Shown here in pieces: positions 2,337 to 60,585 of a stretch of DNA of 64,000 nt (position 1 is the first letter of the stretch; each line of letters opens with the position of its first letter). The position numbers and the translations under genes were made by a program. The DNA comes from Geotrypetes seraphini (Eukaryota; Chordata; Amphibia; Gymnophiona; Dermophiidae), in assembly GCF_902459505.1 (NCBI RefSeq), contig NC_047095.1:115879380-115943379 (forward strand), given 5' to 3'. The notes beneath the pieces are model-generated. The model saw nothing but the letters and a program-made list of their open reading frames with translations, was not told the DNA's origin and made no database searches.

Positions 2337-2387
2337 GTGAGTTCTAGCTCACCTGCAGAGGAAGGAATCTATCACTCCAAGAGCACT

Positions 2388-3080: not shown

Positions 3081-3729
3081 AAGTCTTTGAGGCTTGTTAT
3101 TCATGACATGTACAATACATTTTCAGTCAGTCTATGTGTATATGCTTTGTTCAATACTGAGTCCAGAAGGCAATATGTCAAGTTTTTTGGCAAATAAGAA
3201 ACTGATAGAAGACATAACAGTATAATTTTTCTTCAGCAGAGGAATTGACTCAGGTGCTGAGGTTAATGACAAGATCTGGTGGTTGGGAAGAGGTCCTTTG
3301 CTTTATTACTGCAATTTGGAATTGGTTGCAGAAGTACAGTCTGTAGTTTTACTTTCTCCACTGCATTCTCATTACCATAGAGGAGAGCAATAGAAGTTAG
3401 ACCCTCGTATGAAGGTTGGACTCGAGGGAAACCTGGGGTTGGTTTGTTTGTTCTCAGTTTAAACCCTTGCAATGCAGTGGGCAACTGGCATTGCTTCCTC
3501 ACGGAGCAAGTTCTCCCCCCCCCCCAGCCCCGCTGGATCCAGGACAGATATGTAGCTCTCAGCTAAATTTTGAAATTAAATCCTTCCTTTGCATTAGCGG
3601 CTGTTAAGGGAGACTTTGCAGCCTTTGTTTATGATATGCACCAGTGGAAAACAGCAAAACTCACTTTATGTGCCATGTTTTTGTTGCTGTTTACTCTGCA
3701 TCCCTTCTCTTTCTTTGCTCTCTCTCCAG

Positions 3730-3806
3730 GTACCCCAAGGTCATGACAGAAGAAGTAGCGGGTGTGGTGTGGGAATGGCTGGGGACATCCAGCTCTGTGG
3801 ATGAAG
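3730..3806 (+). CDS. ABHD16A: ABHD16A, coding exon
   Basis: This 77-bp exon runs from a CTCTCTCCAG acceptor to a GTAAGC donor. It reads (R)YPKVMTEEVAGVVWEWLGTS then SSVDE with one base left over. Human ABHD16A has RYPRVMAEEGLRVVRQWLEA followed by SSQLEEA here. Length and phase (1+75+1) fit the neighbouring exons exactly. The intron before it contains the 37-bp minisatellite; the intron after it contains LINE and MITE insertions. Confidence 0.93.
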
Positions 3807-3854
3807 GTAAGCATAATTTCTTTAAAGGCCGAAGGGCATTCACAAGCACCTAAG

Positions 3855-4312
3855 AATAGAAAAGAGACGGCTGAGGGGAGATATGATTGAAGTCTACAAA
3901 ATCCTGAGTGGAGTAGAACAGGTACAAGTGGATTAATTTTTCACTTCCCATCAAAAATTTAAAAAACTAGGGGACACTCAATGAAGTTACAGGGAAATAC
4001 TTTTAAAATCAATAGGAGGAAATATTTTTTCACTCAGAGAACAGTTAAGCTCTGGAACGCGTTGCCAGATGTTGTGGTAAGAGCGGATAGCATAGCTGGT
4101 TTGGACCAGTTCCTGGAGGAAAAGTCCATAGTCTGTTATTGAGAAAGAGATGGGGGAAGCCACTGCTTGCCTTGGATCGGTAACATGGAATGTTGCTACT
4201 CCTTGGGTTTTAGCCAGATACTAGGGACCTGGATTGGCCACCGTGAGAACGGGCTACTGGGCTTAATGGACCATCGCTCTGACCCAGTAAAGCTATTCTT
4301 ATGTTCTTAGGA
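3855..4312 (+). mobile_element. LINE 3' end (CR1/L2 type)
   Basis: Translation with stops gives RLRGDMIEVYKILSGVEQVQ, the C-terminal region after the reverse transcriptase. The segment ends in the tail ATTCTTATGTTCTTAG. Closely related tails recur at 40440-40700 and 54620-55690. It is a decayed 5'-truncated insertion in an ABHD16A intron. Confidence 0.75.
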
Positions 4313-4426
4313 AATGAAGGTGATTGGCTGGAGTCTCTAGCCTTGTTTTGGGAAAGAGGAACAAGAGCAGTAGGAATAGGATTGAAAGGCTGTAGTGGTG
4401 CAGACAACCCTTTTCTTCATCTAGAT

Positions 4427-4619
4427 CAGGGGTGTCAAAGTCCCTCCTCGAGGGCCGCAATCCAGTCGGGTTTTCAGGATTTCCCCAATTGAATATGCAT
4501 GAGATCTATTTGCATGCACTGCTTTCATTGTATGCTAAAAGATCTCATGCATATTCATTGAGGAAATCCTGAAAACCCGACTGGAATGCGGCCCTCGAGG
4601 AGGGACTTTGACACCCCTG
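4427..4619. mobile_element. hAT-like MITE (CAGGGGTGTCAAAGTCC family)
   Basis: A 193-bp palindromic element with terminal inverted repeats CAGGGGTGTCAAAGTCCCTC and its complement, and internal GGGTTTTCAGGATTTCC arms around GCATGCACTGC. It has no coding capacity. Better copies of this family carry 8-bp target duplications, which assigns it to the hAT superfamily. It splits a MIR-like SINE whose 3' part continues to about 4700. Confidence 0.85.
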
Positions 4620-4889
4620 GTTTATATGAATTTATTCAGGTACTCAAGCATTTTTTTTCTTTCCTGTACTGGCGGGCTCGCAGTCTATCTAATGTACCTG
4701 GGGCAATGGGATGTGCTGGAGCTACATCACTTTTTATATAACTCAGAAATGGCCACATATATAAGATGGAGCGTACATTTGCAACACAAAAAGGAACCCA
4801 AGCACAGTACCGGGTAAAGCTTTGGATTCTCGCCCAGAAATAGCTAAGAAGAAGAAAAAAAAAAAAAAAAAAAAATTTTTTTTAATTGA

Positions 4890-5350
4890 ATCAGGTTGGG
4901 CAGACTGGATGGACCATTCGGGTCTTTATCTGCCGTCATCTACTATGTTACTATATTGATAAGTCCAAGAAGATTTGGGGACCATTAACAGATTTTTGTA
5001 ATGACTGATATAATTTTTTCCCATAATAAGATAATGGTTAAAGGAGGGGAGGGAGGGGTGGGGTTTATTCTCTTTATCATAAAATATAAATAAATTATCA
5101 TAATAGTTGTTATATCATATGCAACTAACAAAATAAGGGGAGGGAAAGGGATTCATAATTAAATAATAGTTGATAAAATCATTATATTATATATGATGTC
5201 TAAAATTATAATAAGGATAATATAAGATATGTGGTATATAAGTATGTTATGGCGATAGCAAGTGTATTTTTAAGATAATTGTATGAAAGGGTATAACACA
5301 CTTCTTGTTATATGAAAAAATCAATAAAAATGTTAAAAATCAAAAAAAAA
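4890..5350 (+). mobile_element. LINE tails: CR1-like then L1-like
   Basis: At 4893-4957, GGGCAGACTGGATGGACCAT ... ATCTACTATGTTACTAT is a CR1-type 3' tail. From about 4960 the AT-rich sequence, ending AATCAATAAAAATGTTAAAA then oligo-A, looks like an L1-type 3' UTR and poly(A) tail. Confidence 0.5.
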
Positions 5351-5754
5351 TAACTCAGAAATGGGCGATGATAAAGGAAAAGGATTTGGATTTAACTTGG
5401 ACCTTTTCAGTAGTAGCTCAAGACAAGTTACAATCAAGTACAGGAAATATTTCCTTGTCCCCGGAAGATTCAATCTGTCTGTATTTGAGGCAGTGGAGGG
5501 TTCATTGACCTGTCTTAGTTCATAAGGAGCTTGGTGGGATTTAAGCTTAGCTTCCCTAGTTTTAGTCTGCTACTTTTAACCATCAGGCTACTTCTTCACT
5601 CCTTGTATCTTGGGGTTATCTTTGACACAGCTTTTGACTTTCAATACTTCTGAATTTGGGAGCTGGAATGCATTGTATCGGGGCAACATATTAACCCTTT
5701 CTTTGCTTATTCCCCTGCTTATGCATTTTATTTTTGTAAAACCGCTTTGTAATT

Positions 5755-6302
5755 TTGAAAAGGCAGGATAACAAATTTTTAATAAACTTTTCAAAACGCA
5801 AATTTGACCATGCCTCCCCACTCCTTGCCAAACTACACTGGCTCCCAATGATCTCCAGAATCCATTTCAAATGTTCCTGCCTGGCTTTTAAGATCATTCA
5901 CGGCATCCTTCCTCCCCTTATCCCACTATCTTTCAACTCCTCCAGTCCCGACTCCTCCAGAACCGCCCAAAGGTATAAACTAGCCTTCCCCTCTCTACGC
6001 GGCATTCACTATGCAGGCAAACTGGGAAAATCCCTTCTTTTCAAAATCACAGGACTTTGGAACAACCTCACCATCCCGTTGCGGAACCTGGGCTCCCTCC
6101 AATTATTCCGCAAACAACTGAAAACTTGGCTTTTTACCAAATTGTAACTCTATCCTCCCCCCTTTTTCTCCTCCCTTCTACACATAAGTTTCATGTAAAC
6201 CTTTCTCCTTCTCTACCTATTATTTAAGTTCTTGTAAACCGTGTCGAGCTCCATATTCGTGGAGATGATGCGGTATATAAACTTAAGGATTAGATTAGAT
6301 TA
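5755..6302 (+). mobile_element. LINE fragment (CR1/L2 clade), C-terminal coding end and tail
   Basis: An open stretch encodes KFDHASPLLAKLHWLPMISR then further on GLWNNLTIPLRN, the signature of the segment after the reverse transcriptase in L2/CR1-clade LINEs. The 3' end GTAAACCGTGTCGAGCTCC and GCGGTATATAAACTTAAGG is followed by an ATTAG repeat. It is 5' truncated and sits in an ABHD16A intron. Confidence 0.75.
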
Positions 6303-6371
6303 GAAACTTATGACTAGTAGTTTGAGACAGTAATAAGCAGGCCACGTTCTCCTGTTTTTTCACCCTTGTAG

Positions 6372-6470
6372 CTTCTGTATATAGCCAGTATGAGGTGGAT
6401 GATGATTGGTGTCTGTCTGTCCTGCAGTCCTACAAAGCCGAACATTCTGGAGTCTTTCCTTATAGTGTTG
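6372..6470 (+). CDS. ABHD16A: ABHD16A, coding exon
   Basis: This 99-bp exon follows a CCCTTGTAG acceptor and ends at GTAAGTG. It reads SVYSQYEVDDDWCLSVLQSY then KAEHSGVFPYSV, with the split codons completing Ala at the start and Gly at the end. Human ABHD16A has SIYSRWEVEEDWCLSVLRSY then QAEHGPDFPWSVG, a clear orthologous match including the invariant DWCLSVL. A second AG at 6383-6384 is not used, because phase requires the first. Confidence 0.94.
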
Positions 6471-6555
6471 GTAAGTGTTTAAAAGACAAGTCTCTCTTAC
6501 ACAGCATAGAGAATTTATTTTATTTTATTGCCTCACTTTTTTTTCTGTCTTGCAG

Positions 6556-6602
6556 GGGAAGACATGACTCCAGAAGGTAAAAGGCAGCTTGCTCTCTTTC
6601 TG
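6556..6602 (+). CDS. ABHD16A: ABHD16A, coding exon
   Basis: A short 47-bp exon between TCTTGCAG and GTAAGTG, 85 bp after the previous one. It reads (G)EDMTPEGKRQLALFL; human has GEDMSADGRRQLALFL. It ends in phase 0, matching the terminal exon. Confidence 0.93.
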
Positions 6603-7047
6603 GTAAGTGCTATAATACTACAAGGACTCTCCTTTTAACGACTGCATTCAAACAGCAAGAAGACTATGGCCCCTTAATGTAAATATTGACTTTCCTTATT
6701 ATCCTTGCCAAACCAGTCTGGAACTTGTGGGTTATGCCCATCGACCAGCAGATGGAGACAGAACAAAAGGCTGTGATACTAGTCTGATAAGGGCACCCTG
6801 CAATCTGTATTCCACAGTATTTCTCTACCTCCAGCAGATGGTGATGGTCATACCCTGCAGCTCCAGCATTGATCGAAGACATCTCCTGGCTCAGTTGGAG
6901 AACTATTGACCAGTTGAGCAGATTGTTCTTGAAGTTTTGTGGACTTTGCTTTCTGTTTGAGGAATACTAAGAGATACTAAGAGGAGTCTGAGTCACTACT
7001 CCCCAGCCCCCAGTTCACTGGCTTTTTCTTCAGTTTCTGGCTATTTA

Positions 7048-7859
7048 CCGTATTTTCACTCATATACCGCGCACCCGTGTAAAACGCGCACATGGGTATA
7101 GCGCGCGGGAAACTGTCATTTATGTAAATAAATTTTTATATACCGCGCACACCCGTATACCGCGCATGCCGCCCCGACTCTCCCGTTGCCGCCCGACTCT
7201 CCTTTCGCCCGCCCCGACTCTCCTCTCCCCCTTGAAGTCCTGTCCCCACCCCGAAGGACCGCTCGCACGCACCCCCACCCCGAAGGACTGCTCGCACGCA
7301 CTCCCACCCGCACCCCCACCCCGAAGGACCGCTCGCACCCCCACAGCCTCCCGTTGTCCTGCTGCTTCCTCTTGGCGGTCTCGGCCCTTCTGTGAGCCCT
7401 GCGTCTGCGCTGCTTCCTCTTCCGGCGGTCCCGCCCTTTCTCTGACGTCAGATACCCCCCCCAGGTAACTTTTTTTTTTAAGTCCCCTTTCCACGCTCTT
7501 ACCTGTCTCCCTCGCTGGACGGCTCTTCTGGCAGAGCGGTGCAGAAGGCAGGCGTGTGCTATTCTTGTCTGGTCTGGCGCCGCTTCCCGATTGGCTGCAG
7601 TCGGTTCTTGTGACTCGCGAGAACTGACTGCAGCCAATCGGGGAGCGGCGCTGGACCGGGCAGGAACCCTGCCTTCTGCGCCGCTCTGTCCGAACCAAAG
7701 AAGAGCTGCCCGGCGAGGGAGACAGGCAGGAGCATGGAAAGGGGACTTTAAAAAAAAAGTTACCCGGAGGGGGGGGGTATTCACTCCATAAGACGCACCC
7801 TTATTTCCACCCCCTTTTTGGGGGTAGAAAAAGTATGTCTTATGGAGCGAAAAATACGG
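7048..7859. mobile_element. Fold-back DNA element with TA duplication
   Basis: The ends CCGTATTTTCACTC and GAGCGAAAAATACGG are inverted repeats flanked by TA, as in Tc1/mariner-like and some other DNA transposons. Inside, TATACCGCGC repeats lead into a GC-rich core. A large inverted repeat covers about 7440-7790, centred on GGCTGCAGTCGGTTC / GAACTGACTGCAGCC. Long open frames on both strands here follow from the base composition and match no protein I know. The element lies in the last ABHD16A intron. Confidence 0.7.
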
Positions 7860-8115
7860 TAAGCGTCTGCGGCCTGGAATGCACTTTTCTATCCAATTAG
7901 GACGCTTCAGAACTATTTGTTGTTTTGCAAGATGCTAAAGGCCTATTTAAAAAATATTTGGAGGATTGATTGTATTCTATTTATGTGATTTTAATGTTCT
8001 TGGTTTCTTAAATCTTGTAATCCGCATAGAATTTCACAGCTTTGGCAGAATATAAGAATGCTTTGTAATGTAATGTACAAGAAAGGAGGAAGGCCTGAGG
8101 TGGAATGCTGTAGAC

Positions 8116-8435
8116 CAGTGTATCGCAAACTGTGTGCCCCAATGAAACACTGGTAAGGAGGAGAGGCACCAGCTGACTGCTTATACGACATGCCTCTTGT
8201 GGCGAGAGGCACGTCCTGTAGGCAGTCAGCTGGCACCGACGACTCTCCTCCTTGCCGGCATCGCACCTCCCCATCTCCAGGATCCCCCACCAAAGTGACA
8301 GGTTCAGGGTCGCAGCCAGAGGGCTTCCGTGCGGACGTCGACGTGATAACGTCACGCATGCACGCACTTCCGGGTGCCTTCCGACCGGGGCACCAGGTTT
8401 AGTGTGCCACCGACCAAAAAGTTTGCAGGACACTG
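8116..8435. mobile_element. hAT non-autonomous element (CAGTGTATCGCAAACT family)
   Basis: The ends CAGTGTATCGCAAACT and AGTTTGCAGGACACTG-like are flanked by a perfect 8-bp duplication, CTGTAGAC (8108-8115 and 8436-8443), diagnostic of hAT insertion. The interior is GC-rich and contains an inverted repeat around GGCACGTCCTGTAGGCAGTC. Related copies are at 31700-32035 and 32973-33276. Confidence 0.85.
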
Positions 8436-8887
8436 CTGTAGACCGATAGGTAAAGACTGACATGGAAACAGTAGAAATGTTAAATACTTCTGCTTAGTTA
8501 TTCACAACAAAAAGACCTGTAGAGGGGGCCACTGATTTCGACTAGCAAAAGTACATATCAAATTGCATTGTGTATCGTACCATTCACCAAAGAGGACATA
8601 TTGTAACCAAGATCCTTGCTTCACAATAATAATAATAATAATAACAGTATATATACCGCAATATCGTTAAGTTCTATGCGGTTTACAGAAGATTAGTGGA
8701 GTACAAGTTGAGTTGACATACAAGTTGAGTTGACATACAAGTTGAGTTGACATGACACAATCATCCATAAGATGGAAACAAATAAAATTTGTATGCCTTT
8801 TAAATTTGTGAAGCAGTCTATTTAGGGGCATTAAGTTTATTTCACCCCCCGAGTGTTAAGATTTTCTGGTTTTTCTCTTTCTCCCAG

Positions 8888-8971
8888 GCCCGGAAGTATC
8901 TGAAGAATTTTGACACCACCCATTGCACTCCTTTACCCGCTACTGAGTTTCAAATGCCCTGGAGTTTGTAG
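8888..8971 (+). CDS. ABHD16A: ABHD16A, terminal coding exon and stop
   Basis: This exon starts after TTTCTCCCAG in phase 0. It reads ARKYLKNFDTTHCTPLPATE then FQMPWSL and a TAG stop at 8969-8971. Human ABHD16A ends ARKHLHNFEATHCTPLPAQN then FQMPWHL. The conserved THCTPLPA and FQMPW motifs make the assignment secure. The five exons together give 122 residues with consistent phases and no frame break. Confidence 0.95.
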   Translation, partial: ARKYLKNFDTTHCTPLPATEFQMPWSL

Positions 8972-25697: not shown

Positions 25698-26911
25698 CCC
25701 TGGAGTAGTAGATTTAAAACAAACCAGAGAAAAGATTTCTTCGCATGTGTGATTAAAGTCTGGAAATCATTGCCGGAGAATGTGGGGGAAATCGGTTAGC
25801 TTAGCGAGGTTTACAAAAGACTTGGATAATTTTCCTAAAAGAGAAGTCCATAGGTTTCCAAGTTTATTAGTTTCGTGTTAAACCATCTATCCCAAATATC
25901 TAGACAGTTTACAGTAGGTTACTAACTGTGCCTTCTTTAAAAATCATTGGAACGAGAAGAGCCGATATGTTTACTGTTGCAGGTCCACAATGGTGGAATT
26001 CCCTTCCCCATTATATTAGAATAGAAAGTGATATCCTAATATTCAAAAAGCTTTTAAAATCCCATTTATTTAAGGACGCCTTCGATCTATAATTTAACTT
26101 ATGGACGCCATTAACTAATTTTTAATCCTCTAAATTGTTGTTTTGGCTCAAACAAATATGCAAGAAGTGCTTTGAATAAATTTTTACCCTACCTTTCGTT
26201 CTTCCCTGGTTTTTTGTTTTTTTTTCCTTTTCCCCATTGTAACTTTACCCTCCTTTCCTATCTCTCATGTGAGTCACAATTTGATTTTATTGTAATTAGG
26301 TTAAAGTTTCTTTATTATATTATGTACATCGCTTAGAACTCTGAAATAGGCGATTCATCAAATGTGAAATAAAACTTGAAACTTGAACTAGGTTAATACA
26401 GTAAATTATTTAAAAGATTTAATTGAAAACATTAATGGAGAAGGCCATTATTGAGATGGCTTGGGGAAAATCCACTACTTATTCCTAGGATAAGCAGCAT
26501 AAAATTTGTTTTCCTACTTGAGATCTAGCTAGGGACTTGGGACTGTTGGAAACGGGAAACTAGGCTCGATGGACCTTCGGTCTGTCCCAGTATGGCAACT
26601 CTTATGTTCTTATGTGAGCCAAGTATAGGAGAGTGAAGCCATTGTGACATCATTGCTGAGCTTGGCTCCTAGGCATTGGTGAAATGAGGCATTATGACAT
26701 CACAATATCAGCTCTGGAATGTTGCTACTCCTTAGGATCTTGCCAGGCACTTGTGACCTGGGTTGGCCACTGTTGGAAACAGGATACTGGTCTCGATTGG
26801 ATAGGCCATATGGTCTTTACGTCTGTTTTTCTATTACTGTGTTTTCTTCCATATCCTAAACTGACTTCATCAGGCTTTAGACTTGGACGGTCCTTGATTA
26901 GTGGCAGCGAA

Positions 26912-26958
26912 GTGAACACATCCAGTACTTTGGATGCTATTTTCTTTTTGCAGTAATT
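26912..26958 (+). other. Detached left edge of the gene B exon array
   Basis: GTGAACACATCCAGTACTTTGG then CAGTAATTTGGGATTTT matches the intron found between all array exons. Homology starts at about GTGAACAC; the bases before it do not match an array exon. The next part of this intron resumes at about 28025 after a 1.06-kb insertion. Confidence 0.8.
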
Positions 26959-28020
26959 TGGGATTTTTTTTTTTTTTTTAAATCCTTTATTTATAATTTG
27001 TTACATATCCAAACAACAAATATTCAGGTAAATCAAGAACAGCAAAAAAGAAAATAATTTGTATATAGCAATATAAAAGGAAATAAACTTCAAATAGCCT
27101 AGTCCATTTTATACATGTTTGAAATAAACTACCATGACCCAGTCCACTTTTATATTAGTCGCTTGATAACCATACAATAAGAAATACACTTCCCCCTTAA
27201 TATTCGCGGGGGTTAGGGGCACAGCTGGCCCACGAATATTGAAAAACGCAAATAATTTTTTGGGCCGACTCTGAGCCCCGTCCCACCTCCCTCCCACCTG
27301 GTGGTCTAGCGGTGAAGCAGGGAAGTAGCGATCGTCCTACGTTCCTGCAGTAGCGATCGTCCTACATTCCTGCCCCATGCAGAGCCGTCCACAAAAATGG
27401 CTGCCGTGAGTTCCCGCTATAGTCTCGTGAGACCATGGGAACTCAAAGCAGGCTCTGCACGGGGCAGGAGCGTAGGACGATCGCTTCTGCCCCGCTTCAC
27501 TGCTAGACCACCAGGTAAGGTGTGGAGAGGTTCGGGAGGTGGGGGTGATTCTGGGTTTAGAAAACTGCAAATAACCGAAGTCGCGAGTCCTAAACCCGCG
27601 AATCGGGAGGGAGAAGTGTAGCATAATCAGTCTAGTATTAATACCTTTAACAGACAAGATGTGGCATTCTTTCACATGTCATAACTTCCTTCAAAAGCCA
27701 AAAAAAAAATAAAATTATGAAACTGTTTGCAAAGGTATATCCATAAGAAAATCCACCTCACTGGTTCCAAAAATACATACTTAACACTTAATATTTCATA
27801 CTTAATATGAAATGAGGCATTTCCAAGGAAACTTTTTTTAAAAAGAAAGTTGCTCCTGCCACTAAAGCCTTAGGCTTTGTATTGTGGCCGCGTAACAAAT
27901 TTTCCAGATGTATCAAAGGCAGACTCAATTTGAAAGGAAGCAGTTCCTACAACTCAAGCCTGTTTTTTTTTCATGAAGTACAATTTTAAAATAGTTTGCT
28001 TCTCTAATTCAGACTTAAAC
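26959..28020 (-). mobile_element. L1-like tail with nested MITE, splitting the array's first intron
   Basis: The T-run at 26963-26980 followed by AAATCCTTTATTTATAATTTG is the reversed poly(A) end of an L1-like element. At 27187-27618 a fold-back element interrupts it (CCTTAATATTCGCGGGGGTT and CTAAACCCGCGAATCGGGAG ends), with an inner inverted repeat around GTAGCGATCGTCCTACGTTC. Confidence 0.65.
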
Positions 28021-28024
28021 ACAA

Positions 28025-31000
28025 CCAATAATGTTCATGGGTGCGTCTCTTCTCTGCAGGAGATTTCCAGACATACAGATGTGACCGGAGGGGATAAAGC
28101 GGACATGGAGTCGGAGGTCTCTGATGAAGCGGTATGTTGCCTACATTGAACACATCCTGTACTTTGGATGCTAGTTTCTTTCTGCAGTAATTTAGGATTT
28201 TAATGTTACGTTCATGGGTGTCTCTCTTCTCTACAGATTTCCAGACATACAGATGTGACGGGTGGGGATAAAGCGGATATGGAGTCGGAGGTCTCTGATG
28301 AAGCGGTATGTTGCCTACATTGTGAACACATCCTGTACTTTGAATGCTAGTTTCTTTCTGCAGTAATTTGGAATTTTAATGTTACATTCATGGGTGTCTC
28401 TCTTCTCTGCAGGATATTTCCAGACATACAGATGTGACCGGAGGGGATAAAGCGGACATGGAATCGGAGGTCTCTGATGAAGCGGTATGTTGCCTACATT
28501 GAACACATCCTGTACTTTGGATGCTAGTTTCTTTCTGCAGTAATTTGGGATTTATTGTTACATTCATGGGTGTCTCTCTTCTCTGCAGGAGATTTCCAGA
28601 CATACAAATGTGACCAGAGAGGATAAAGCGGACATGGAGTCGGAGGTCTCTGATGAAGAGGTATATTGCTTCCATGGTGAACACATCCTGTACTTTGGAT
28701 GCTAGTTTCTTTCTGCAGTAATTTAGGATTTTAATGTTACGTTCATGGGTGTCTCTCTTCTCTACAGATTTCCAGACATACAGATGTGACGGGTGGGGAT
28801 AAAGCGGATATGGAGTCGGAGGTCTCTGATGAAGCGGTATGTTGCCTACATTGTGAACACATCCTGTACTTTGAATGCTAGTTTCTTTCTGCAGTAATTT
28901 GGAATTTTAATGTTACATTCATGGGTGTCTCTCTTCTCTGCAGGAGATTTCCAGACATACAGATGTAACCGGTGGGGATAAAGCGGACATGGAGTCGGAG
29001 GTCTCTGATGAAGCGGTATGTTGCCTACATTGTGAACACATCCTGTACTTTGGATGCTAGTTTCTTTCTGCAGTAATTTGGGATTTTAATGTTACATTCA
29101 TGGGTGTCTCTCTTCTCTGCAGATTTCCAGACATATAGATGTGACCGGAGGGGATAAAGCGGACATGGAGTCGGAGGTCTCTGATGAAGCGGTATGTTGC
29201 CTACATTGTGAACCCATCCTGTACTTTGGATGCTAAGTTTCTTTCTGCAGTAATTTGGGATTTTAATGTTACATTCATGGGTGTCTCTCTTCTCTGCAGG
29301 AGATTTCCAGACATACAGATGTAACCGGTGGGGATAAAGCGGACATGGAGTCGGAGGTCTCTGATGAAGCGGTATGTTGCCTACATTGTGAACCCATCCT
29401 GTACTTTGGATGCTAAGTTTCTTTTTGCATTAATTTGGGATTTTAATGTTACATTCATGGGTGTCTCTCTTCTCTGCAGGAGATTTCCAGACATACAAAT
29501 GTGACCGGTGGGGATAAAGCGGACATGGAGTCGGAGATCTCTGATGAAGCGGTATGTTGCCTGTATGGTAAACACATCCTGTACTTTGGATGCTAGTTTC
29601 TTTCTGCAGTAATTTGGGATTTTAATGTTACATTCATGGGTGTCTCTCTTCTCTGCAGGATATTTCCAGACATACAGATGTGACCGGAGGGGATAAAGCG
29701 GATATGGAATCGGAGGTCTCTGATGAAGCGGTATGTTGCCTACATTGAACACATCCTGTACTTTGGATGCTAGTTTCTTTCTGCAGTAATTTGGGATTTT
29801 AATGTTACATTCATGGGTGTCTCTCTTCTCTGCAGGAGATTTCCAGACATACAGATGTGACCGGAGGGGATAAAGCGGACATGGAATCGGAGGTCTCTGA
29901 TGAAGCGGTATGTTGCCTACATTGAACACATCCTGTACTTTGGATGCTAGTTTCTTTCTGCAGTAATTTGGGATTTATTGTTACATTCATGGGTGTCTCT
30001 CTTCTCTGCAGGAGATTTCCAGACATACAAATGTGACCGGTGGGGATAAAGCGGACATGGAGTCGGAGGTCTCTGATGAAGAGGTATATTGCTTCCATGG
30101 TGAACACATCCTGTACTTTGGATGCTAGTTTCTTTCTGCAGTAATTTAGGATTTTAATGTTACGTTCATGGGTGTCTCTCTTCTCTACAGATTTCCAGAC
30201 ATACAGATGTGACGGGTGGGGATAAAGCAGATATGGAGTCGGAGGTCTCTGATGAAGCGGTATGTTGCCTACATTGTGAACACATCCTGTACTTTGGATG
30301 CTAGTTTCTTTCTGCAGTAATTTGGGATTTTAATGTTACATTCATGGGTGTCTCTCTTCTCTGCAGATTTCCAGACATATAGATGTGACCGGAGGGGATA
30401 AAGCGGACATGGAGTCGGAGGTCTCTGATGAAGCGGTATGTTGCCTACATTGTGAACCCATCCTGTACTTTGGATGCTAAGTTTCTTTCTGCAGTAATTT
30501 GGGATTTTAATGTTACATTCATGGGTGTCTCTCTTCTCTGCAGATTTCCAGACATATAGATGTGACCGGAGGGGATAAAGCGGACATGGAGTCGGAGGTC
30601 TCTGATGAAGCGGTATGTTGCCTACATTGTGAACCCATCCTGTACTTTGGATGCTAAGTTTCTTTCTGCAGTAATTTGGGATTTTAATGTTACATTCATG
30701 GGTGTCTCTCTTCTCTGCAGGAGATTTCCAGACATACAGATGTAACCGGTGGGGATAAAGCGGACATGGAGTCGGAGGTCTCTGATGAAGCGGTATGTTG
30801 CCTACATTGTGAACACATCCTGTACTTTGGATGCTAGTTTCTTTCTGCAGTAATTTGGGATTTTAATGTTACATTCATGGGTGTCTCTCTTCTCTGCAGA
30901 TTTCCAGACATACAGATGTGACCGGAGGGGATAAAGCGGACATGGAATCGGAGGTCTCTGATGAAGCGGTATGTTGCCTACATTGAACACATCCTGTACT

Positions 31001-31520
31001 TTGGATGCTAGTTTCTTTCTGCAGTAATTTGGGATTTTAATGTTACATTCATGGGTGTCTCTCTTCTCTGCAGGAGATTTCCAGACATACAGATGTAACC
31101 GGTGGGGATAAAGCGGACATGGAGTCGGAGGTCTCTGATGAAGCGGTATGTTGCCTACATTGTGAACACATCCTGTACTTTGGATGCTAAGTTTATTTCT
31201 GCAGTAATTTGGGATTTTAATGGTACATTCATGGGTGTCTCTCTTCTCTGCAGGGGATTTCCAGACATACAGATGTGATCGGTGGGGATAAAGCGGACAT
31301 GGAGTCGGAGTTCTCTGATGAAGAGGTATATTGCTTCCATGGTGAACACATCCTGTACTTTGGATGCTAGTTTCTTTCTGCAGTAATTTAGGATTTTAAT
31401 GTTACATTCATGGGTGTCTCTCTACTCTGCAGGAGATTTCCAGACATACAGATGTGACTGGAGGGGATAAAGCGGACATGGAGTCGGAGGTCTCTGATGA
31501 AGAGGTATGTTGCCTCCGTG
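28025..31520 (+). repeat. Tandem array, about 178-bp unit, exon plus intron
   Basis: Twenty units of 174-180 bp each hold one 69- or 72-bp exon and a 104-108-bp intron. Introns are as similar as exons, showing recent unequal exchange or conversion. Multi-unit duplications are visible: the trio at 28413-28836 (starting GATATT, then the AATGTG exon with GTATAT donor, then the CTACAG exon) recurs at 29659-30259 with one extra unit. Confidence 0.95.
28060..31504 (+). CDS. Gene B: 20 tandem repeat exons
   Basis: Exons lie at 28060-28131, 28237-28305, 28413-28484, 28589-28660, 28768-28836, 28944-29015, 29123-29191, 29300-29371, 29480-29551, 29659-29730, 29836-29907, 30012-30083, 30191-30259, 30367-30435, 30544-30612, 30721-30792, 30900-30968, 31074-31145, 31254-31325 and 31433-31504. 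All are phase 0, with TCTGCAG or TCTACAG acceptors and GTATGT or GTATAT donors. Each encodes EISRHTDVTGGDKADMESEV then SDEA/E, or the same without the first Glu. None contains a stop; together they give 473 acidic residues. NVT sequons occur in exons 4, 9 and 12. Upstream exons were not found and the family is unknown. TSBP1, another class III gene, also has repeated tiny exons, but I see no sequence similarity. Confidence 0.75.
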
Positions 31521-31699
31521 GACAGGTTATGAGATTCATTCTTCCAATGGGCATCTGTAGAAATCTCATGCAGATCGAAGCGGGACTTTCAGCTGGCATA
31601 AGTAAGGTTGAACAGATAGCAGAGCTTCAGAAATGGGGGGGGGGGGGAGTTAGCAAAACGTATCAGATGAGTAGGGGCATGTACAAGGAGAAACTAGAG
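31505..31699. other. Post-array intron
   Basis: Array similarity fades after GTATGTTGCCTCC. A run of about 13 G lies at 31629-31641. No exon seen. Confidence 0.5.
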
Positions 31700-32035
31700 C
31701 AGTGTCTCGCAAACTTTCTGGCCAGCAGCTCACTAAATCCAGTGCCCCAGCCGGAAGGCACCTGGAAGTGTGCGGATGTTGACGCCATGACGTCCGGGCA
31801 TGCGTGGCGGCCCATCTGGCCATGACCCGCTTCGGTGGAGGGTTCCGGGAGGTGCAGGAGGAGAGACGCCGACCAAGAGGAGAGTCCTCTGTGCCGGCTG
31901 ACTTCCTACAAGATGTGCCTCTCGCCGCGATAAACTCATCCTGTAGGCAGTCAGCTGGCACGGACGACTCTCCTCCTCGGCAGTGTATTGCGGCACGCCT
32001 GAAATCTCAGGAGGCACAGAGTTTGTGATACACTG
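31700..32035. mobile_element. hAT non-autonomous element (CAGTGTCTCGCAAACT family)
   Basis: CAGTGTCTCGCAAACTTTC to GAGTTTGTGATACACTG, with flanks AACTAGAG and GGCTAGAG sharing CTAGAG. Same family as 8116-8435, including the CCTGTAGGCAGTCAGCTGGC inner arm. Confidence 0.85.
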
Positions 32036-32038
32036 GGC

Positions 32039-32289
32039 TAGAGAATGACACGGGGACAAATGTGTCCCCCGTCCCATCCCTGCGCGCTTTTGTCGCTGTC
32101 CCTGGCCCATTTCCCGCAAGCTCTGCTGTAATCGCACAAGCCTCAAACATTTATGATTTTAAAGTGTCCGAGGCTTGTGCAGATGAGGACGGAGCTTGCA
32201 GGAATGGGGCAAGGAAAGAACTCGCAGGGCGGAATAGGAAATTGAGTTTCCGTGGGGACAGGGACAAATTTGTCCCCATGTCCTTCTCA
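32039..32289. mobile_element. MITE of the TAGAGAATGACACGG family
   Basis: It starts TAGAGAATGACACGGGGAC, abutting the previous element, and ends near CCCATGTCCTTCTC. An internal inverted repeat pairs GCAAGCTCTG / CGGAGCTTGC and AAGCCTC / GAGGCTT. Confidence 0.7.
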
Positions 32290-32970
32290 AATAGAGACGT
32301 TTAATATTCCTGCATTGTACCTTTTTTTCTCTTTGTTCTCTGCTTTCCACCAATCACAACTACTTCCTCTCATGGAAGAATTGCCAGAATCCAGGGAACA
32401 GAAATAGCAGGGGAGACTGATAAAATACACAAAGCGTAGGGACTAATAATAGCAAGGCAGAATCCGACAAAATGCAGGGAGCACAGAGGCAGGAGATGTC
32501 GAGGAGACTGGCAAAGCGCAGACAGCAAGGAAGAGGGGCTGACCTACGATCCAAAGGAGCCCTGGCTCCTAGCCTGGAAGCGAGAAGGAGCAGGCTTCTC
32601 CTCGGCCTGGGAACGTGCAGGCATATAGAGAGAGCTGTGTAAAATGCCAAGTCTCCCACTTTCAGCTTATGTAGGTTATCTCCCACTGGGGAGCCAAGAG
32701 CACCTTTTCAGCAAACACCCCTCTCTCCCCCACCCCCTCTGTGTTAATCGCATCTCCTGCTGCTGGAAGACCAATCTCATGATCCGAGCTGTGAGATTTT
32801 TCTGCTATTATCACACCAAACTGGTCCCTTGGCAGCAGGTGCTCATGAGGGGGAGGCCGCTTGTTGGTGTGTCAGGGAGTGGGAGGAGCCGGGAGGTGGA
32901 ATAGGTGGATCTGGATGGAGTAGGATGGGGCTGGTGGTAAGCCCCCTCGGCAGCTGTCTTTATTACTTAT
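32290..32970. other. No gene seen (gene B intron)
   Basis: A purine-rich stretch at 32380-32600 with no splice-bounded open frame I can support. Confidence 0.4.
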
Positions 32971-32972
32971 GC

Positions 32973-33276
32973 CAGTGTCTCAAACTTTGTCGAGCCGCGG
33001 CTCGAGGTATCCAGAAGTTAGCAGACATCGACGCACGCGCGAAGGCCTTTCAGACGGGCCCTGAGCCGGCGGTGGGGGGGGGGGGGGGGGGGGGTGTGCC
33101 AGCAGAGAAGAGGGCCGGAGAGAAAAAGAGGTGCTGGTACCGGCTGATTTCCTACAGAACGCGCCTCTCACGGCGAGAGGCACGTCTTGTAGGCAGTTCA
33201 GCCGGCACCTCTCCTCCTTCCCAGTGCGTCGCGGCCCGCCTGAGATCTCGGGAGGCACGCCATTTGCGATACACTG
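32973..33276. mobile_element. hAT non-autonomous element with long G tract
   Basis: CAGTGTCTCAAACTTTGTCG to ATTTGCGATACACTG, same family as 8116-8435. A homopolymer of about 21 G (33074-33094) lies inside it. Confidence 0.8.
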
Positions 33277-33384
33277 ACCTACGCTCCACATCTGGGCCTG
33301 AATAGAGGTGCTGAAAATACCAGGTGTAATTCCTGGTGCCCTATTTGGGTGCACAGACCTGGCATTCTAAAACAGTTTTCTCAA

Positions 33385-33468
33385 CTCAGTCCTGGAGCGC
33401 CCCCTTGCCAGTCAGGTTTTCAGGACATCCACAATGAAATATGCATGAAAGAAATTTGCATATCAAGT
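33385..33468. mobile_element. hAT MITE, left half of a split copy
   Basis: CTCAACTCAGTCCTGGAGCG then GTCAGGTTTTCAGGACATCC is the left arm. The complementary right arm (GGATATCCTGAAAAGCTGAC, CGCTCCAGGACCGAGTTGAG) lies at 34788-34893. The LINE between them inserted later. Confidence 0.85.
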
Positions 33469-33639
33469 TTTAAGTTTATATAAAATTTGATCGAATCGCT
33501 TACCAAAATTCTAAGCGACGTACAAAGAATATAAAATGAGGAACATAAATATAATTATGAATAACAGACATAAAAAAAAATTATATTCCAACAACAAAGA
33601 ACAAACTGACAAACTGAACCAAACTGGCAGGGGGGGTAT

Positions 33640-34068
33640 GAACTGGTGACCCATCAAAACCGCGGCGGATATTTGCACAGGACAGATGTGCACCGCTATA
33701 CAGGGCTTCCTGTTTGCGCTGTGAGGGGTGTGTGGGGGTAACCCCCCCACACACACACCAAACTTACAAGTCCTCACACTCCTGTTGGAGGCAGTGTGGG
33801 GGCAGACTCCCCCCCTCTCCCACTACCAAAGCTCCAAGAGCGAAAACGGGAAGGACAACAGGGGTTTTCAGTGTACTGGGGGGATTCCCCCCCCCCCGTA
33901 ACCCCAACCCCCAACGGGAGCACGAGAACTTTGTAAGGTTTACTGTGAGGTTCCCTTCCCACACACCCCACTCACAGCGCAAACAGGAAGGCCTCAAAGT
34001 CGCGGCGCGCATTTTTTCTGCGAGCAAATGTCACCTCGGGATTGGCGCCAATGTCCGGTGTGCTTTTG
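33640..34068. repeat. Diverged fold-back element
   Basis: The arms CAGGGCTTCCTGTTTGCGCT and AGCGCAAACAGGAAGGCCTC, with paired GTGTGGGGG / CCCCACACAC blocks, make a long imperfect hairpin. General build matches copies A and B (10407 and 34208) but the sequence is different. Confidence 0.65.
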
Positions 34069-34207
34069 ACAGTGTACTATATGAACTGCATTTAATATAG
34101 GACAGTAAACATAAATAGTAAAAACAACTATGAGGGGAAGTCCAAAGTTAGAAGCTCAAAGTAGGGGCTGGCTAAGAGATCCTGCTTAGAACTACAGTAG
34201 ACATAAT

Positions 34208-34656
34208 GGTGTCAGGTCAAAAGCGTGCCGGGACAAAGGCGCGCCCAGACAATTGAGCGCAGCGCGGAGGCACGCGCTGCTGAAAATTACTGTTTTTAGG
34301 GCTTCGGGGGGGGGGCATGGGGGGGAACCCCCCCACTTTACTTAATAGACATCGCGCCGCGTTGTGGGGGCGTTGTGGGGGGTGTGGGGGGTTCTAACCC
34401 CCCACATTTTACTGAAAACTTAACTTTTTCCCTGTTTTTATGGAAAAAGTTAAGTTTACAGTAACATGTGGAGGGTTACAACCCCCCAAACCCCCCATAA
34501 CGCCGGCGCGATGTCTATTAAGTAAAGTGTGGGGGGGTTCCCCAACACAACCCCCCGTCGGAGCCCTAAAAACAGTAATTTTGAGTGGCGCGCGCCTCCG
34601 CACTGCGCTCAATTGTCTGGGCGCGCCTTTGTCTTTCGCGCCGTTGTCTATGAACC
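34208..34656. mobile_element. Long fold-back element, copy B
   Basis: It starts GGTGTCAGGTCAAAAGCGTG and ends GTTGTCTATGAACC, flanked by identical GACATAAT (34200-34207 and 34657-34664). The two arms of about 210 bp meet at the palindromic centre TTTTTCCCTGTTTTTATGGA. Shares ends and arms with copy A. Confidence 0.9.
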
Positions 34657-34787
34657 GACATAATTAATCAAAAGCGTCTTTAAACAAGTTGCCTTTAAAA
34701 CGATCTCAAGATTTTTCTCCCCGCAAATGGAGTTCCAGAGTTGTGGGGCGGGAAAAGATACTTGAACGCCTCTTGTTGATAATGGAG

Positions 34788-34893
34788 GCAGCATATGCAA
34801 ATCAAGTTTATGCATATTCATTGTGGATATCCTGAAAAGCTGACTGGCAAGGGGGGGCGCTCCAGGACCGAGTTGAGAAACGCTGCTCTATAA
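34788..34893. mobile_element. hAT MITE, right half of a split copy
   Basis: Complement of the left half at 33385-33468, ending GACCGAGTTGAGAAACGCTG. Confidence 0.85.
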
Positions 34894-34957
34894 CGGCAGG
34901 CCGCAAGACCAGGGCAGAGTTTTGAGGCTAAGGATTAACTGTCATGTGCTGCTTTAG

Positions 34958-35149
34958 GTCTCCACCAAGAAGGAGAGACATTATCGGCTGGGAGAGGATA
35001 ACCTGGAGGATACCTTGGAATATGAGTTTCCTACCGCTGCTGGTCTCATGCCCTTGACTGAGAGAGAGAAAGATGAAGACATGATCCCCATAACACCTCA
35101 ACCGAGTGCCCTGGACCCCGTTGCCATATTAGAACCCGTGATGAGATGA
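34958..35149 (+). CDS. Gene B: terminal coding exon
   Basis: After a GTGCTGCTTTAG acceptor the phase-0 frame reads VSTKKERHYRLGEDNLEDTL, EYEFPTAAGLMPLTEREKDE, then DMIPITPQPSALDPVAILEP and VMR before TGA (35147-35149). The 63 residues are hydrophilic and acidic like the repeat exons, with no membrane segment. The phase matches the array donors, and a poly(A) signal follows 41 bp after the stop. I do not recognise the family. Joining to the array is inferred from phase, strand and the absence of another gene between. Confidence 0.7.
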   Translation, partial: VSTKKERHYRLGEDNLEDTLEYEFPTAAGLMPLTEREKDEDMIPITPQPSALDPVAILEPVMR

Positions 35150-35189: not shown

Positions 35190-35195
35190 AATAAA
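35190..35195 (+). terminator. Poly(A) signal of gene B
   Basis: AATAAA 41 bp after the TGA stop, followed by a GT-rich stretch (TTTGGTATTTGTGTGTATAT) typical of a downstream cleavage element. Confidence 0.75.
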
Positions 35196-44025: not shown

Positions 44026-44528
44026 CCTCTGCTGCCAACTCCGCCCCTTCTACCTTGCTGCACCATATGCCTGTAACAAACTGCCTGACTCAGGAGGTCA
44101 GCCAAGCTCAATCGCTGGCAGTAATCAAATTCATGCTAAAAGCTCTTTTTTTTTCAAGCTGCCTTTAAGTCTGAACTCCAACCCTCTTGTAAAGCATCCC
44201 TATCTGTTTGTCATTCCCTTTATAGCTCCCCGCCCTTCTGGAATTCTCTAACTGAGCAGCGTGTATAGGTTCACCTCTTTTGTCCTGTTTCTTTGTCACA
44301 GTTAGATTGTAAGCTCTTTTGAGCAGGGACTCTGTCTTCCATCTGGGCGCACTACAGAAATAATAAGTAGCTCCCTCTTCAGTGATTTGGCTCATTCCAG
44401 TTGATTAGTCGCAGTAATCTTTCTTGGATCTCGTACTACGATGGAACCTAGACGTGACCTCTTGTGCATTCCCGGTTTCTATGACCCCCCTTTACATATT
44501 TTGGGTGACTAATGTTGTGTTTCTCCAG

Positions 44529-44831
44529 CTGTAGATCGCAGGCGGGCCGCTTTGGGGCACACGGTCACCATCCGTTGTTTAGTCAGAGCGCCGGTTATCC
44601 AATGGGAGTGGAGGCCTAAATTCCCCACCTGCGCCAGAGTCGGGGACAGGGTCAGCAGGATGATGGAGCCCCAAGGGTTCACCCCTCCTCTGCATTTCGG
44701 GAACCGTCTTCGGCTCAGCGTTGGCGGCAAGAACCTTGAGCTTCAGGAAACGCAGATTAGGGACTCGGGCAAGTACACCTGCGTGGCAGTCGATGGGCAA
44801 AAATGGATCACCGACCTACGCGTTCGGGAAG
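44529..44831 (+). CDS. MPIG6B: MPIG6B-like, exon 2: first Ig-like domain
   Basis: Residues 22-122. Cys38 (TIRC) and Cys106 (DSGKYTC) are the Ig disulfide pair, with Trp47 and Trp49 after the first Cys. The D-S-G-K-Y-T-C motif is the V-set F-strand. Human G6b has PIRWVWAPSFPAC where this has VIQWEWRPKFPTC, and GRLRSL...DSGTFFC where this has NRLRLS...DSGKYTC, a good match for this fast-evolving family. In human G6b-B this domain binds heparan sulfate. The exon starts after TTTCTCCAG. Confidence 0.9.
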
Positions 44832-44921
44832 GTAAGTAATTTTTCACCCACTTCCTGTTCCTACATCTAACAGGAGAAGTCCCCAAGACCCCCCTGCTCC
44901 TGGACCATTCTGGATTGGAAG

Positions 44922-46227: not shown

Positions 46228-46425
46228 CACCACCTGCTGGGAGAATCTGGGACTGCAAGAGCTGTGAGCTTACCCCCATTTCTTACAGCACCACCTGCTG
46301 GGAGAATCTGGGACTGCAAGCGCTGTGAGCTTACACCCCTGCCGCCAGTGTAACTGCACCATTTTCTACAGCATCTTCTGCTGGGAGAAGCTGAGCTTGT
46401 AGGAACTGCGAGTTACCCCAGTGTT
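46228..46425 (+). repeat. Three tandem copies just before MPIG6B exon 3
   Basis: Copies begin CACCACCTGCTGGGAGAATC at 46228 and 46289, and a diverged one (CATCTTCTGCTGGGAGAAGC) at 46372. Each includes GCTGTGAGCTTAC or similar. Each copy is preceded by a possible acceptor (TTTCTTACAG, TTTTCTACAG), so decoy 3' splice sites lie within 165 bp of the true one. Confidence 0.8.
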
Positions 46426-46452
46426 TCATGCTCCTTTTGCTCTTTATCATAG

Positions 46453-46770
46453 GCTGTTTCAATAATATCAACCTCGCCATCATCAAGAACAGACCCTCGG
46501 AGGCAACTCTGTACTGTAAAGTCTGCAACCTGATGAGGTCGGAGAGCTCTTTCACCTGGACTGTGAATGGCATTCCCCTTCAGCAGGTGCTGGGGAGCCA
46601 GCACACGAGGACAGGGGCTATTCTGAGTGTGTCCCTCAAGAGTGAGCACCTCCTGGGAGCCTGGCAATGCATGTCCACAGCAAACCGGACCTGGTACGCC
46701 GAGCATTGCCTGGAACTGGAGTCGCCCGACTATAAACCAGAGGAGGACATGGAGTATGGGGAAGAGAAAG
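46453..46770 (+). CDS. MPIG6B: MPIG6B-like, exon 3: second Ig-like domain
   Basis: Residues 123-228. ATLYCKVC (Cys144/Cys147), FTWTVNG (Trp158) and GAWQCMST (Cys195) give the Ig C-W-C pattern, and Asn200-Arg-Thr is an N-glycosylation site. An acidic linker (PDYKPEEDMEYGEEK) follows. Human G6b-B lacks this domain. LY6G6F, its neighbour in human, has a region after its V domain with similar spacing (VLLC...VTW), so this may be an ancestral two-domain form. The acceptor is TTTATCATAG, and the donor is GTAAGA. Confidence 0.85.
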
Positions 46771-48004
46771 GTAAGAACACCATGCACCCTCCGCACTATC
46801 CATCTCTTGCCACTTTGCTTGGGGACCTTCAGGGTAGCCATTTGACCTTCGAGGTCAATGTCCAAGTCAGTCCTGGAATAACCCCTTGCCAGCCCATCAA
46901 TTTCATGCATATTCATTATGGATATACATTAAGGTTGGGGTCCTCTGACAAAATTTGTTTGGAAGTTCCGTCATTGGCTGTGGAGCAACTTCTGAGTAAC
47001 CGGAAATCAATGCTTTCTGTCCAGGGTCCAATGCTTTGGCTTTTCTGTTATTTTTGCGTCAAAGTAATGGCTTCCACATTTTAAAAAAGGGGTGACGACT
47101 TTGCTGAATGAGCATTTTTTTGGTGCAAGATTTGAGAAAGTTTGAATTTTTATATTCTGCTTGTAATTGCATTATATTAGTGACTTTTATTCCGCCATTA
47201 CCTTGCGGTTTAAGGCGGATTACACAAGAGGTTATCTGGACATTTCCAGGAGAGTTACAAAGTAGAGCGAGTTACTTCGGGGGAGATCTTGACATTGTAT
47301 CAGGGTCAATACAAGATAGATAATTTAGATCAGTGTTCTTCAACCGCCGGTGCGCGGTGTGATCGATGCGGCGTTATCTTCAGGCCAGCTCCGTGTTCCT
47401 CACTGACGCAATGCACAAAGCCGCGGGCAGTGGCTCCTACGCGCGTCCTGCGCCTGAACCGGAAGCCTTCTCTCTAATGTCGCATCAGAGAGAAGGCTTC
47501 CAGATGAGGCACAGGGTGCACAAGGAGCCGCTGCCCGCGACTTTGTGCACTGCGTCAGTGAGGAACACGGAGCCGGCCTGAAGAGAACACCGGAGGCGGC
47601 ATAAAACGGCCAGGCGGGAGCAGGCCAGAAGGTAAGGCACAGCATGGAGGGAGACAACAAAGGTAGAGGGAATGATTTTATTTTTGTAACATTCCTAATA
47701 CATAATATTGTATAACAATCTAAATTAATTAAATTAAATTAAAAATTAATTGGAAATAAATGGAAATAAAAAAATATATAAATGCAGAATGAAGTCCTGA
47801 ATTCACATCCCGTCAGTTTAAAAAGGCCAATTGGAAATAATGTGACTTTAGATGTCTTTTTAAAAATTTTGGAAAGATTCTCTCAATTCTACAGGCAAAC
47901 TATTCCAAAAAGGTAGGTTTTCAGTCTGCTTTTAAACAAGGGAAGGGGATCATTTATTCCAGGCTTAGGGGGCAGCTAGATGAAAGGAACGAAGGGTAAC
48001 GTTG
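46771..48004. other. MPIG6B intron 3, left part: palindromic MITE
   Basis: At 47375-47585 a GC-rich inverted repeat pairs CTCCGTGTTCCTCACTGACG with CGTCAGTGAGGAACACGGAG around GAGAGAAGGCTTCC arms. A LINE tail fragment lies at about 47190-47330 (TTGCGGTTTAAGGCGGATTA). No exon seen. Confidence 0.6.
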
Positions 48005-48540: not shown

Positions 48541-48746
48541 TAGGGTGGATATCCTGAAAACCTGGACTGGCTGAATATGCCCCAAGAACCAAGTTGGGAA
48601 GAACTGGCCTATACACTAAGAGAAATCAGACCCTGGCTGCCTCCTTTGCATTTCAGTTATAGGCCCACTTTGCCTCCCTCCAGCTCTGTCACAATTTGGC
48701 CCTGTTTCTCTTAATTCATATGGATCTCCTTCTCACCTCACTGCAG

Positions 48747-48876
48747 AGCCAGAAGCCGGACCCAAGCCTGCATCCGTCAACCTGTTCCAGCTCATCCTTA
48801 CAACCCTCGGAGCCCTGACGCTCTTCGCCTTGGTCATCCTCTGCCTCTGTTTCTTCTGTAAGCGGGCGCAAGATAG
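48747..48876 (+). CDS. MPIG6B: MPIG6B-like, exon 4: transmembrane segment
   Basis: Residues 229-271 plus two bases. A short extracellular stalk (EPEAGPKPASV) leads to a hydrophobic helix of about 23 residues, LILTTLGALTLFALVILCLC, then FFCKRAQDR with basic residues marking the cytoplasmic side. There is no charged residue in the helix, so it would not pair with an ITAM adaptor. That fits an inhibitory receptor. Confidence 0.9.
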
Positions 48877-49077
48877 GTAAGGACTAATGGCGCCGACTTT
48901 TAACTTAGCCAGGGCCGGAAAGCTCAGACCTGGTCAGCAAGCTGCTGGGATTTACCGGCGGGGGCTGCCTTGGTAGCAGCGGGGTGAGCAAGGAGCAATT
49001 AAGACTCCACGGGAAGAGAAGCTGGGCTTCTCCTGGTTTTGGACTGGAGGCGCTAGTGTGTAAATCTTTCTTTTTAG

Positions 49078-53020: not shown

Positions 53021-53544
53021 CAGTGGCGTTGCAAGGGTGAGAGGCTCCCCCCTCCCCATCTGCTCCTTCCCCCATACCTCTAACATTTGGGCCGTAAAAG
53101 TAGCAACCCCAACCTGCTGCTCGCGCCAGCGTCGGCTCTTCCTAGGCGTGGGTCCAGGAAGTGACGTCGGAGAAAAGATCTTCCAAGGCGTGGGTCCAGG
53201 AAGTGACATCAGAGAAATGATCTTCCAAGGCGTGGGTCCAGGAAGTGACGTCGGAGAAAAGATCTTCCAAGGCATGGGTCCAGGAAGTGACGTCAGAGAA
53301 AAGATCTTCCAAGCCATGGGTCCAGGAAGTGACATCAGAGAAAAGATCTTCCAAGGCGTGGGTCCATGAAGTGACGTCGGAGAAAAGATCTTCCAAGCCG
53401 TGGGTCCAGGAAGTGACGTCAGAGAAAAGAGCCAATACTGGAAAGCAGCAAGTTGGGGGTGCTGCTCGTGCCCCGAAAATTAAGGAGATATGGGGGAAGG
53501 GGCACACAGTAGAAGGGGGCTGGGCAGACCCTCCCCCACCACTG
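53021..53544. mobile_element. hAT-like MITE carrying a 42-bp minisatellite
   Basis: It starts CAGTGGCGTTGCAAGGGTGA and ends near CTCCCCCACCACTG. At 53144-53430 seven copies of a 42-bp unit (AGGCGTGGGTCCAGGAAGTG start) occur. The unit arose from the family's CGTGGGTCCAGGAAGTGACG interior. It lies 127 bp upstream of MPIG6B exon 7. Confidence 0.8.
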
Positions 53545-53670
53545 TTTGCGGGCATCATACTTGCTACAGCCAACTGGCTCATAGGGAGGTGGGGAGTGTA
53601 ATGTCCACCCTTAATGCAGGGATTTTAATCCCAGACAGAATATCTAATACCACGGCTCTCTCTTCTACAG

Positions 53671-59800: not shown

Positions 59801-60585
59801 AAAAAAAAATAAATGATCACTTTAAAACCAGCCAAGATAATTTGATTATTAAAATAGCCACACACACAATTTGTAAGTTATCTGCATTTACTTCACTTTT
59901 ATTAAGAAATAAACCAAAAAAAGGTGTTGTTATTTTCAAGAACCTACAGGTACAAAATCTAGCCTGCTACAATTACCCAACCCCTGGGCTGCTGGGAGGA
60001 GGATTTCAGCAGCCCAAACAGCTTGGAGGCATTCCTGCCTTCTCGGGGCATTACAGGTAAAAGAGGGAGGAGCCAAACAAGCCACACCCCCATCTGCATA
60101 TTTGAAGTCAGGAAGGAAGGCGCTGCAGCAGGGGGGGGGGAAAGAACATACAAGAGATTACTTGGGAGAGGAGCCTTCATGGGAACAGTGGGTGGCTACA
60201 GTTTCTTATTGATCAGAATGCAACAGGAAGACAGGGTCCCCCCAATCTTCCCCACCTCGGTGCAGGCAGCTGGGATGAGGGTGTAGTCTGTCAGCTTCTG
60301 GAAAGTCTGTAAGGGAAGAGAGTTAAGATGTAAGAACTGGAGGACTTCAAGCCCAACTTTCTGCCAGTTGCTGAAAAGCTAACTCCTAGGTCAGGGATGC
60401 AGGAATTCAGGCCAGGTGTTCAGGACAGCCTTAGGTATATGCATGAGATTTGCATACAATGGAAGTACTATCCATATTCATTAGAGAGATCCTGAAAATC
60501 TGGCCTGTTTTGCGGCGTTCAAGGCCTCAGATCTTCCATCCCTGTCCTATGTACTTCCAGGAAAAAACATTGAAGGTGACCTCTG
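59800..60585. other. No gene seen
   Basis: AT-rich then GC-richer DNA; a diverged MITE core (TTAGGTATATGCATGAGATTTG) lies at about 60430-60540. No supported exon. Confidence 0.4.

Follow-up and report, generated by a model that had tools for sequence, protein, structure and literature searches.

Genomic setting of the exon array

The DNA analyzed here (the window) is a 64,000-nucleotide stretch of the Geotrypetes seraphini contig NC_047095.1. Using tblastn with human ABHD16A, G6B, DDAH2, and LY6G6F proteins as queries, we located ABHD16A exons on the + strand at 3704-8968 (last exon 8888-8968), a V-set Ig exon of the G6B/MPIG6B type at 44513-44836 (Pfam G6B score 24.2 bits, marginally below the cut-off of 24.3), and a DDAH2 exon on the - strand at 60202-60309. 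An array of short exon-like blocks lies between ABHD16A and the G6B-type exon, the position given for it in an earlier sequence-only reading of this DNA, and judging by these neighbors it is within the MHC class III interval. The amphibian MHC literature yielded nothing on the ABHD16A-MPIG6B interval, and Rfam and tRNA scans returned no matches.

This place is occupied in mammals by LY6G6 genes. A search for Ly6/uPAR features at the locus gave no Ly6 Pfam match and no credible CC..CN motif (sought as a CCxxxxCN C-terminus), and the array product is free of cysteine. The LY6G6F query produced no tblastn match near the array; its best match, a weak one (E 0.15), fell on the Ig exon at 44.7 kb.

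Several further features of the interval were recorded. Two + strand exons follow 3' of the G6B-type V-set exon: at 46395-46775 a second Ig-like exon with a Pfam C1-set match of E 0.06, and at 48738-48877 one that is transmembrane-like. Human MPIG6B has one Ig domain; the gene here may differ from it, or these exons may belong to two genes. In this DNA, ABHD16A shares its strand with the G6B-type gene, whereas their human counterparts are on opposite strands, suggesting an inversion. In addition, a 37-bp minisatellite (2374-3080; 19 copies, 99% identity) lies near the ABHD16A exons, and seven copies of a 42-bp repeat, a multiple of three, occupy 53137-53430 and are open on the + strand (ORF 53221-53598).

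Twenty symmetric micro-exons in tandem

TRF, a scan for AG-exon-GT blocks, and alignment revealed 20 exon-like blocks within 28060-31504 (+ strand), of which 13 measure 72 bp and seven 69 bp. Every block has AG directly before it and GT directly after it (20/20), and all 20 are open in phase 0 and symmetric (phase 0-0). The 19 introns between them are 104-108 bp long, and TRF describes the whole as a repeat of period 176 with 19.6 copies and 93% matches. Each element of the earlier description (20 stop-free exons of 69/72 bp in phase 0, alternating with 104-108-bp introns) was thereby located. The consensus exon is EISRHTDVTGGDKADMESEVSDEA, and the coding unit of the array reads 20 x [E/D/G]ISRHTDVTGGDKADMESEVSDE[A/E]. 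The two exon lengths differ by the first codon at the acceptor, which is GAG, GAT, GGG, or absent; since this is a whole codon, the difference is frame-neutral. Apart from it, indels between copies are confined to the introns, where there are several, and no exon carries a frame-shifting indel.

The first array exon (28060-28131, 72 bp) is preceded by 26 bp of array-like sequence, after which homology ends at an insert. The last one (31433-31504, 72 bp) has the best donor of the array (GAG/GTATGT) and is followed by a last intron of 3.45 kb (31505-34957), several stretches of which recur elsewhere in the window by self-comparison. This intron leads to a terminal coding exon at 34958-35149 on the + strand, which comprises 63 codons plus TGA (VSTKKERHYRLGEDNLEDTLEYEFPTAAGLMPLTEREKDEDMIPITPQPSALDPVAILEPVMR) in the phase that matches the array. 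An AATAAA poly(A) signal at 35190-35195 starts 43 nt downstream of the first base of the TGA and precedes a T/GT-rich stretch, TTTTGGTATTTGTGTGTATAT; the phase-matched terminal exon and poly(A) signal that had been proposed are both present. Among ~700 acceptors on both strands of the window, 34958 is the only one combining at least 63 open phase-0 codons, a codon score of at least 0.25, and a close AATAAA, a comparison that is descriptive, as its thresholds were taken from the terminal exon itself. The nearest competitor is a - strand candidate inside the array, with a lower codon score.

We scored splice sites and codon use with human matrices and codon frequencies, which limits the precision of all such scores. 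The array acceptors score 10.5-12.7, which puts them near the 99th percentile of AG dinucleotides across the window, and the donors 4.4-8.4 (90th-99th percentile); the acceptor of the terminal exon (34958) is mediocre, at the 91st percentile. Nearly all array introns (28132-31432) also contain a second acceptor-like AG at +56/58, for example at 28188; it is absent in one intron, scores up to 9.6, and has a phase-0 TAA immediately behind it. At 57 nt, an intron ending there would be short by vertebrate standards, so this second AG is expected to be silent, but it could become relevant if exons are skipped.

Coding evidence from the repeat copies

The sequence-only reading had taken 20 stop-free exons as the mark of a gene. 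The exons are indeed stop-free, but the step from this to a gene is weaker than it seems, because all copies took over their phase and open frame from a single parent exon and are not 20 independent observations. They amount to roughly one observation, the outcome of one recent duplication series, and the chance that 15 substitutions would introduce no stop is 0.60-0.77. Similarly, the copies are as alike as the term near-identical implied, but this likeness reflects recent copying and not conservation, given that the introns are equally alike: per-site diversity among copies amounts to 0.049 for exons against 0.037 for introns. Amino-acid-changing sites are variable at 7 of 52 positions, compared with 18 of 105 intron sites (P 0.65), and silent sites at 6 of 17, somewhat more often than intron sites (P 0.10). 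Seven of the 15 exon substitutions are silent, where ~25% are expected (P 0.04-0.09), a weak synonymous excess. As amino-acid sites are as variable as intron sites, there is at best a weak indication of purifying selection acting on the repeat.

Codon use in the proposed frame bears on the question separately. The array exon scores +0.28 bits/codon (P 0.03) and the terminal exon +0.25 (P 0.017), against a background of approximately zero in random open windows, which places the terminal exon in the top 1.7% of open 63-codon windows. Both scores are within or above the range of the ABHD16A and Ig-gene exons. The strong acceptors, the frame-specific codon use in both types of exon, and the terminal exon with its poly(A) signal constitute independent support for a gene.

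Origin of the array

A blastn search with the array intron found a single further piece outside the array, at 26912-26967 on the + strand, which is 94.6% identical to array-intron positions 17-72 (E 2e-20) and represents the left part of the parental upstream intron. The outer edges of the array are at 28034-28059 on the left and at 31505-31521 on the right, ~17 bp into the intron that follows exon 20. Between the parental piece and the left edge, an insert of ~1.07 kb (26968-28033) splits the parental intron; it has a T-run at its start, and a search for a target-site duplication gave no clear one. The insert contains a GC-rich palindromic element at 27296-27516, with 53-bp arms that are 91% alike. 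This element carries an ATG together with a good phase-0 donor, and could have been recruited as a first exon. The segment at 26780-26911 was considered as a decayed array exon and rejected, as its alignment was no better than random.

The simplest reading of these edges is that the copied unit consisted of the upstream intron from 26912/26913, the exon, and ~17 bp of the downstream intron. The tandem duplication seen in the sequence thus copied, as one segment, the tail end of an intron, a symmetric exon of 72 bp, and ~17 bp from the start of the intron that follows. Because this segment had its own acceptor and donor, each copy is a ready-made exon with an intron of ~107 bp. Some units match at a distance: u7 is identical to u14 and u8 to u16, while u5 and u13 have one difference and u4 and u12 three. 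These pairs suggest that multi-unit blocks were copied later, as in unequal exchange, which would have shifted such blocks and brought this haplotype to 20 copies. Since blocks with 0-1 differences are present, copy number likely differs between chromosomes; in the one haplotype at hand, these blocks make the proposed length variation likely.

Search for the upstream end

Since array exon 1 has an acceptor and the parental intron extends upstream of it, there must be further exons on that side, which could be coding. We sought a 5' coding exon in 9-28 kb and found no convincing one, and a Pfam scan of the three + frames over 8.8-28 kb revealed no Ig or other credible domain; as a positive control, the scan detected the Ig exon at 44.5 kb. 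The candidate at 27397-27519 (MAAVSS...PPGK), despite a good donor and a phase-0 end, was not accepted because it is inside the palindromic element within the insert. Another candidate, a weak one, is a 38-nt segment at 26874-26911 on the + strand (FRLGRSLISGSE), which is open, ends in phase 0, and has its donor GT exactly where array-intron homology starts.

Within the gene model, 26874-26911 is a possible though doubtful preceding exon, in which case the unit would hold a nearly complete ancestral intron of ~91 nt. The coincidence of a donor of this strength with such an exon is expected at ~0.1% of positions, but the donor (2.9, 84th percentile) and acceptor (6.1) are weak, and the candidate was chosen after the fact. 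Also within the gene model, though in our view rather improbably, translation may start inside the array, with upstream exons contributing 5' UTR only and a product made of the repeats and the C-terminal 63 residues. The failure of the upstream search would fit this, as would the in-frame Met present in every repeat (GCGGACATGG context, purine at -3 and G at +4); against it, Pfam scans overlook domains that are split between exons or not yet known, and the upstream exons that the array requires could be coding.

Predicted product

Spliced from the first array exon to the stop, the predicted product has 536 residues, a calculated pI of 4.1, and a charge of about -119, in agreement with the acidic repeat of more than 500 residues that had been anticipated. 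It falls far on the disordered side of a charge-hydropathy plot, and its predicted tryptic peptides include HTDVTGGDK and ADMESEVSDEAEISR. The terminal exon folded alone from its single sequence gave a low-confidence model (pTM 0.13) with no domain. No relative of the product was found in Pfam, PDB, or prokaryote and virus collections, all of which lack amphibian proteomes; the lack of relatives among virus and prokaryote contigs is expected for a vertebrate gene. In PDB, the array product had weak matches only (best E 0.17, OspA constructs) and the terminal exon none. Pfam hits of the array product to RecO_N_2 (26.2 bits, below the cut-off of 27), DUF5837, and filaggrin were discarded as artifacts of composition or repetition.

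We infer that all or most array exons are spliced together. Because each consists of whole codons with phase 0 at both ends, skipping, gain, or loss of exons keeps the frame into the C-terminal exon. The resulting protein would carry a long acidic spacer or tail, free of cysteine and probably disordered, built of 23/24-residue repeats. Array copy number and splicing would set its length, while the C-terminal end stays fixed.

Comparison with known serial-exon systems

TSBP1 (C6orf10), the comparison offered in the sequence-only reading, is an MHC-region gene said to have many small exons, at another position in the MHC than the array. A better documented MHC precedent is offered by the chicken BG genes, members of the butyrophilin family in the MHC B locus, in which 13-36 small symmetric exons of 21/24 nt, their number varying between genes, code for the cytoplasmic tail (PMC4046983). 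Like the array, these genes are MHC-linked and contain a long series of small symmetric exons; unlike it, their unit is a 21-nt heptad, presumed to form a coiled coil, while the array unit has 69/72 nt and is acidic. Features of BG and other butyrophilin genes were looked for at the locus: no V-type Ig exon was found upstream of the array (Pfam, + frames, 8.8-28 kb), its 69/72-nt units are not heptad exons of 21 nt, and a B30.2 match was obtained neither in the array product with its terminal exon nor in the downstream + frames as far as 49.3 kb.

The PEVK region of titin also has many short serial exons, some of them very similar, which encode a repetitive spring-like segment of evolving length and tend to be missed or merged by gene predictors (PMC6469411). 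It differs from the array in its Pro-Glu-Val-Lys composition, its place in a giant muscle gene, and its more diverged exons. Given this behavior of gene predictors, the array gene may be absent or wrong in annotations. Kringle IV-2 of LPA is a coding VNTR of complete exon-plus-intron units present in 1-40 copies per allele (PMC11462820): the array likewise consists of tandem near-identical units, each a complete exon with an intron, but the LPA unit, 5.6 kb long, contains two exons and codes for a folded kringle. Finally, schistosome micro-exon genes (MEGs) have a coding region composed mostly of very small symmetric exons and can generate isoforms by splicing (PMC4350168); they belong to an unrelated phylum, and their secreted or gland-associated products are found at the host-parasite interface.

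No sequence relation of the array to BG, titin PEVK, LPA kringle IV-2, or MEGs was seen, and the features examined speak against placing it in the BG, Ly6, or LY6G6F groups. The array probably represents, in a probable gene, the principle of serial symmetric exons or a coding VNTR that is already known elsewhere, with a presumed function. By analogy, this may be a role like that of titin's PEVK segment or of the tails that repeat exons encode in chicken BG proteins.

Interpretation and significance

We consider it probable that a lineage-specific protein-coding gene lies on the + strand in the interval from ABHD16A to the G6B-type gene and that the locus is its 3' half, the gene being centered on a coding VNTR of exon-plus-intron units, with a tail length set by copies and splicing. 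Under a different explanation, which we regard as unlikely, the locus is decayed or was never coding: the array would be a minisatellite of 176-bp period grown from one old exon, with the open frames hitch-hiking, and a gene that may once have been real would now be a pseudogene or make a non-coding spliced RNA. Exons no less variable than introns, amino-acid sites changing at the intron rate, an absence of stops that chance would explain, and searches that gave neither a 5' exon nor a homologue are all consistent with it. What argues for a coding gene instead is that splice sites are intact in all 20 copies, that frame-shifting indels number zero in exons and several in introns, and that the terminal exon combines coding-like codon use with a good poly(A) signal. 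It is highly improbable that the opposite strand is the one transcribed and coding. Although the reverse complement of the joined array exons is open in all three frames, the aligned blocks have no AG/GT flanks on the - strand, for which reason this alternative was rejected, and no - strand Pfam match was found in 18.4-28 kb or 31.5-40.5 kb.

A bolder version of the coding reading, to which we give low confidence, is that this MHC class III gene, not described before, encodes a protein of fast-changing, individual-specific length, set by the number of identical micro-exons between conserved exons at both ends. Selection would then be acting on a length polymorphism linked to the MHC.

The parental intron flanks and the breakpoint of the array are still visible. 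If transcribed, the array would be a clear young case of a gene gaining a long repeat by copying a self-contained exon together with its intron, and the MHC class III region would gain a new protein, one that probably varies in length.
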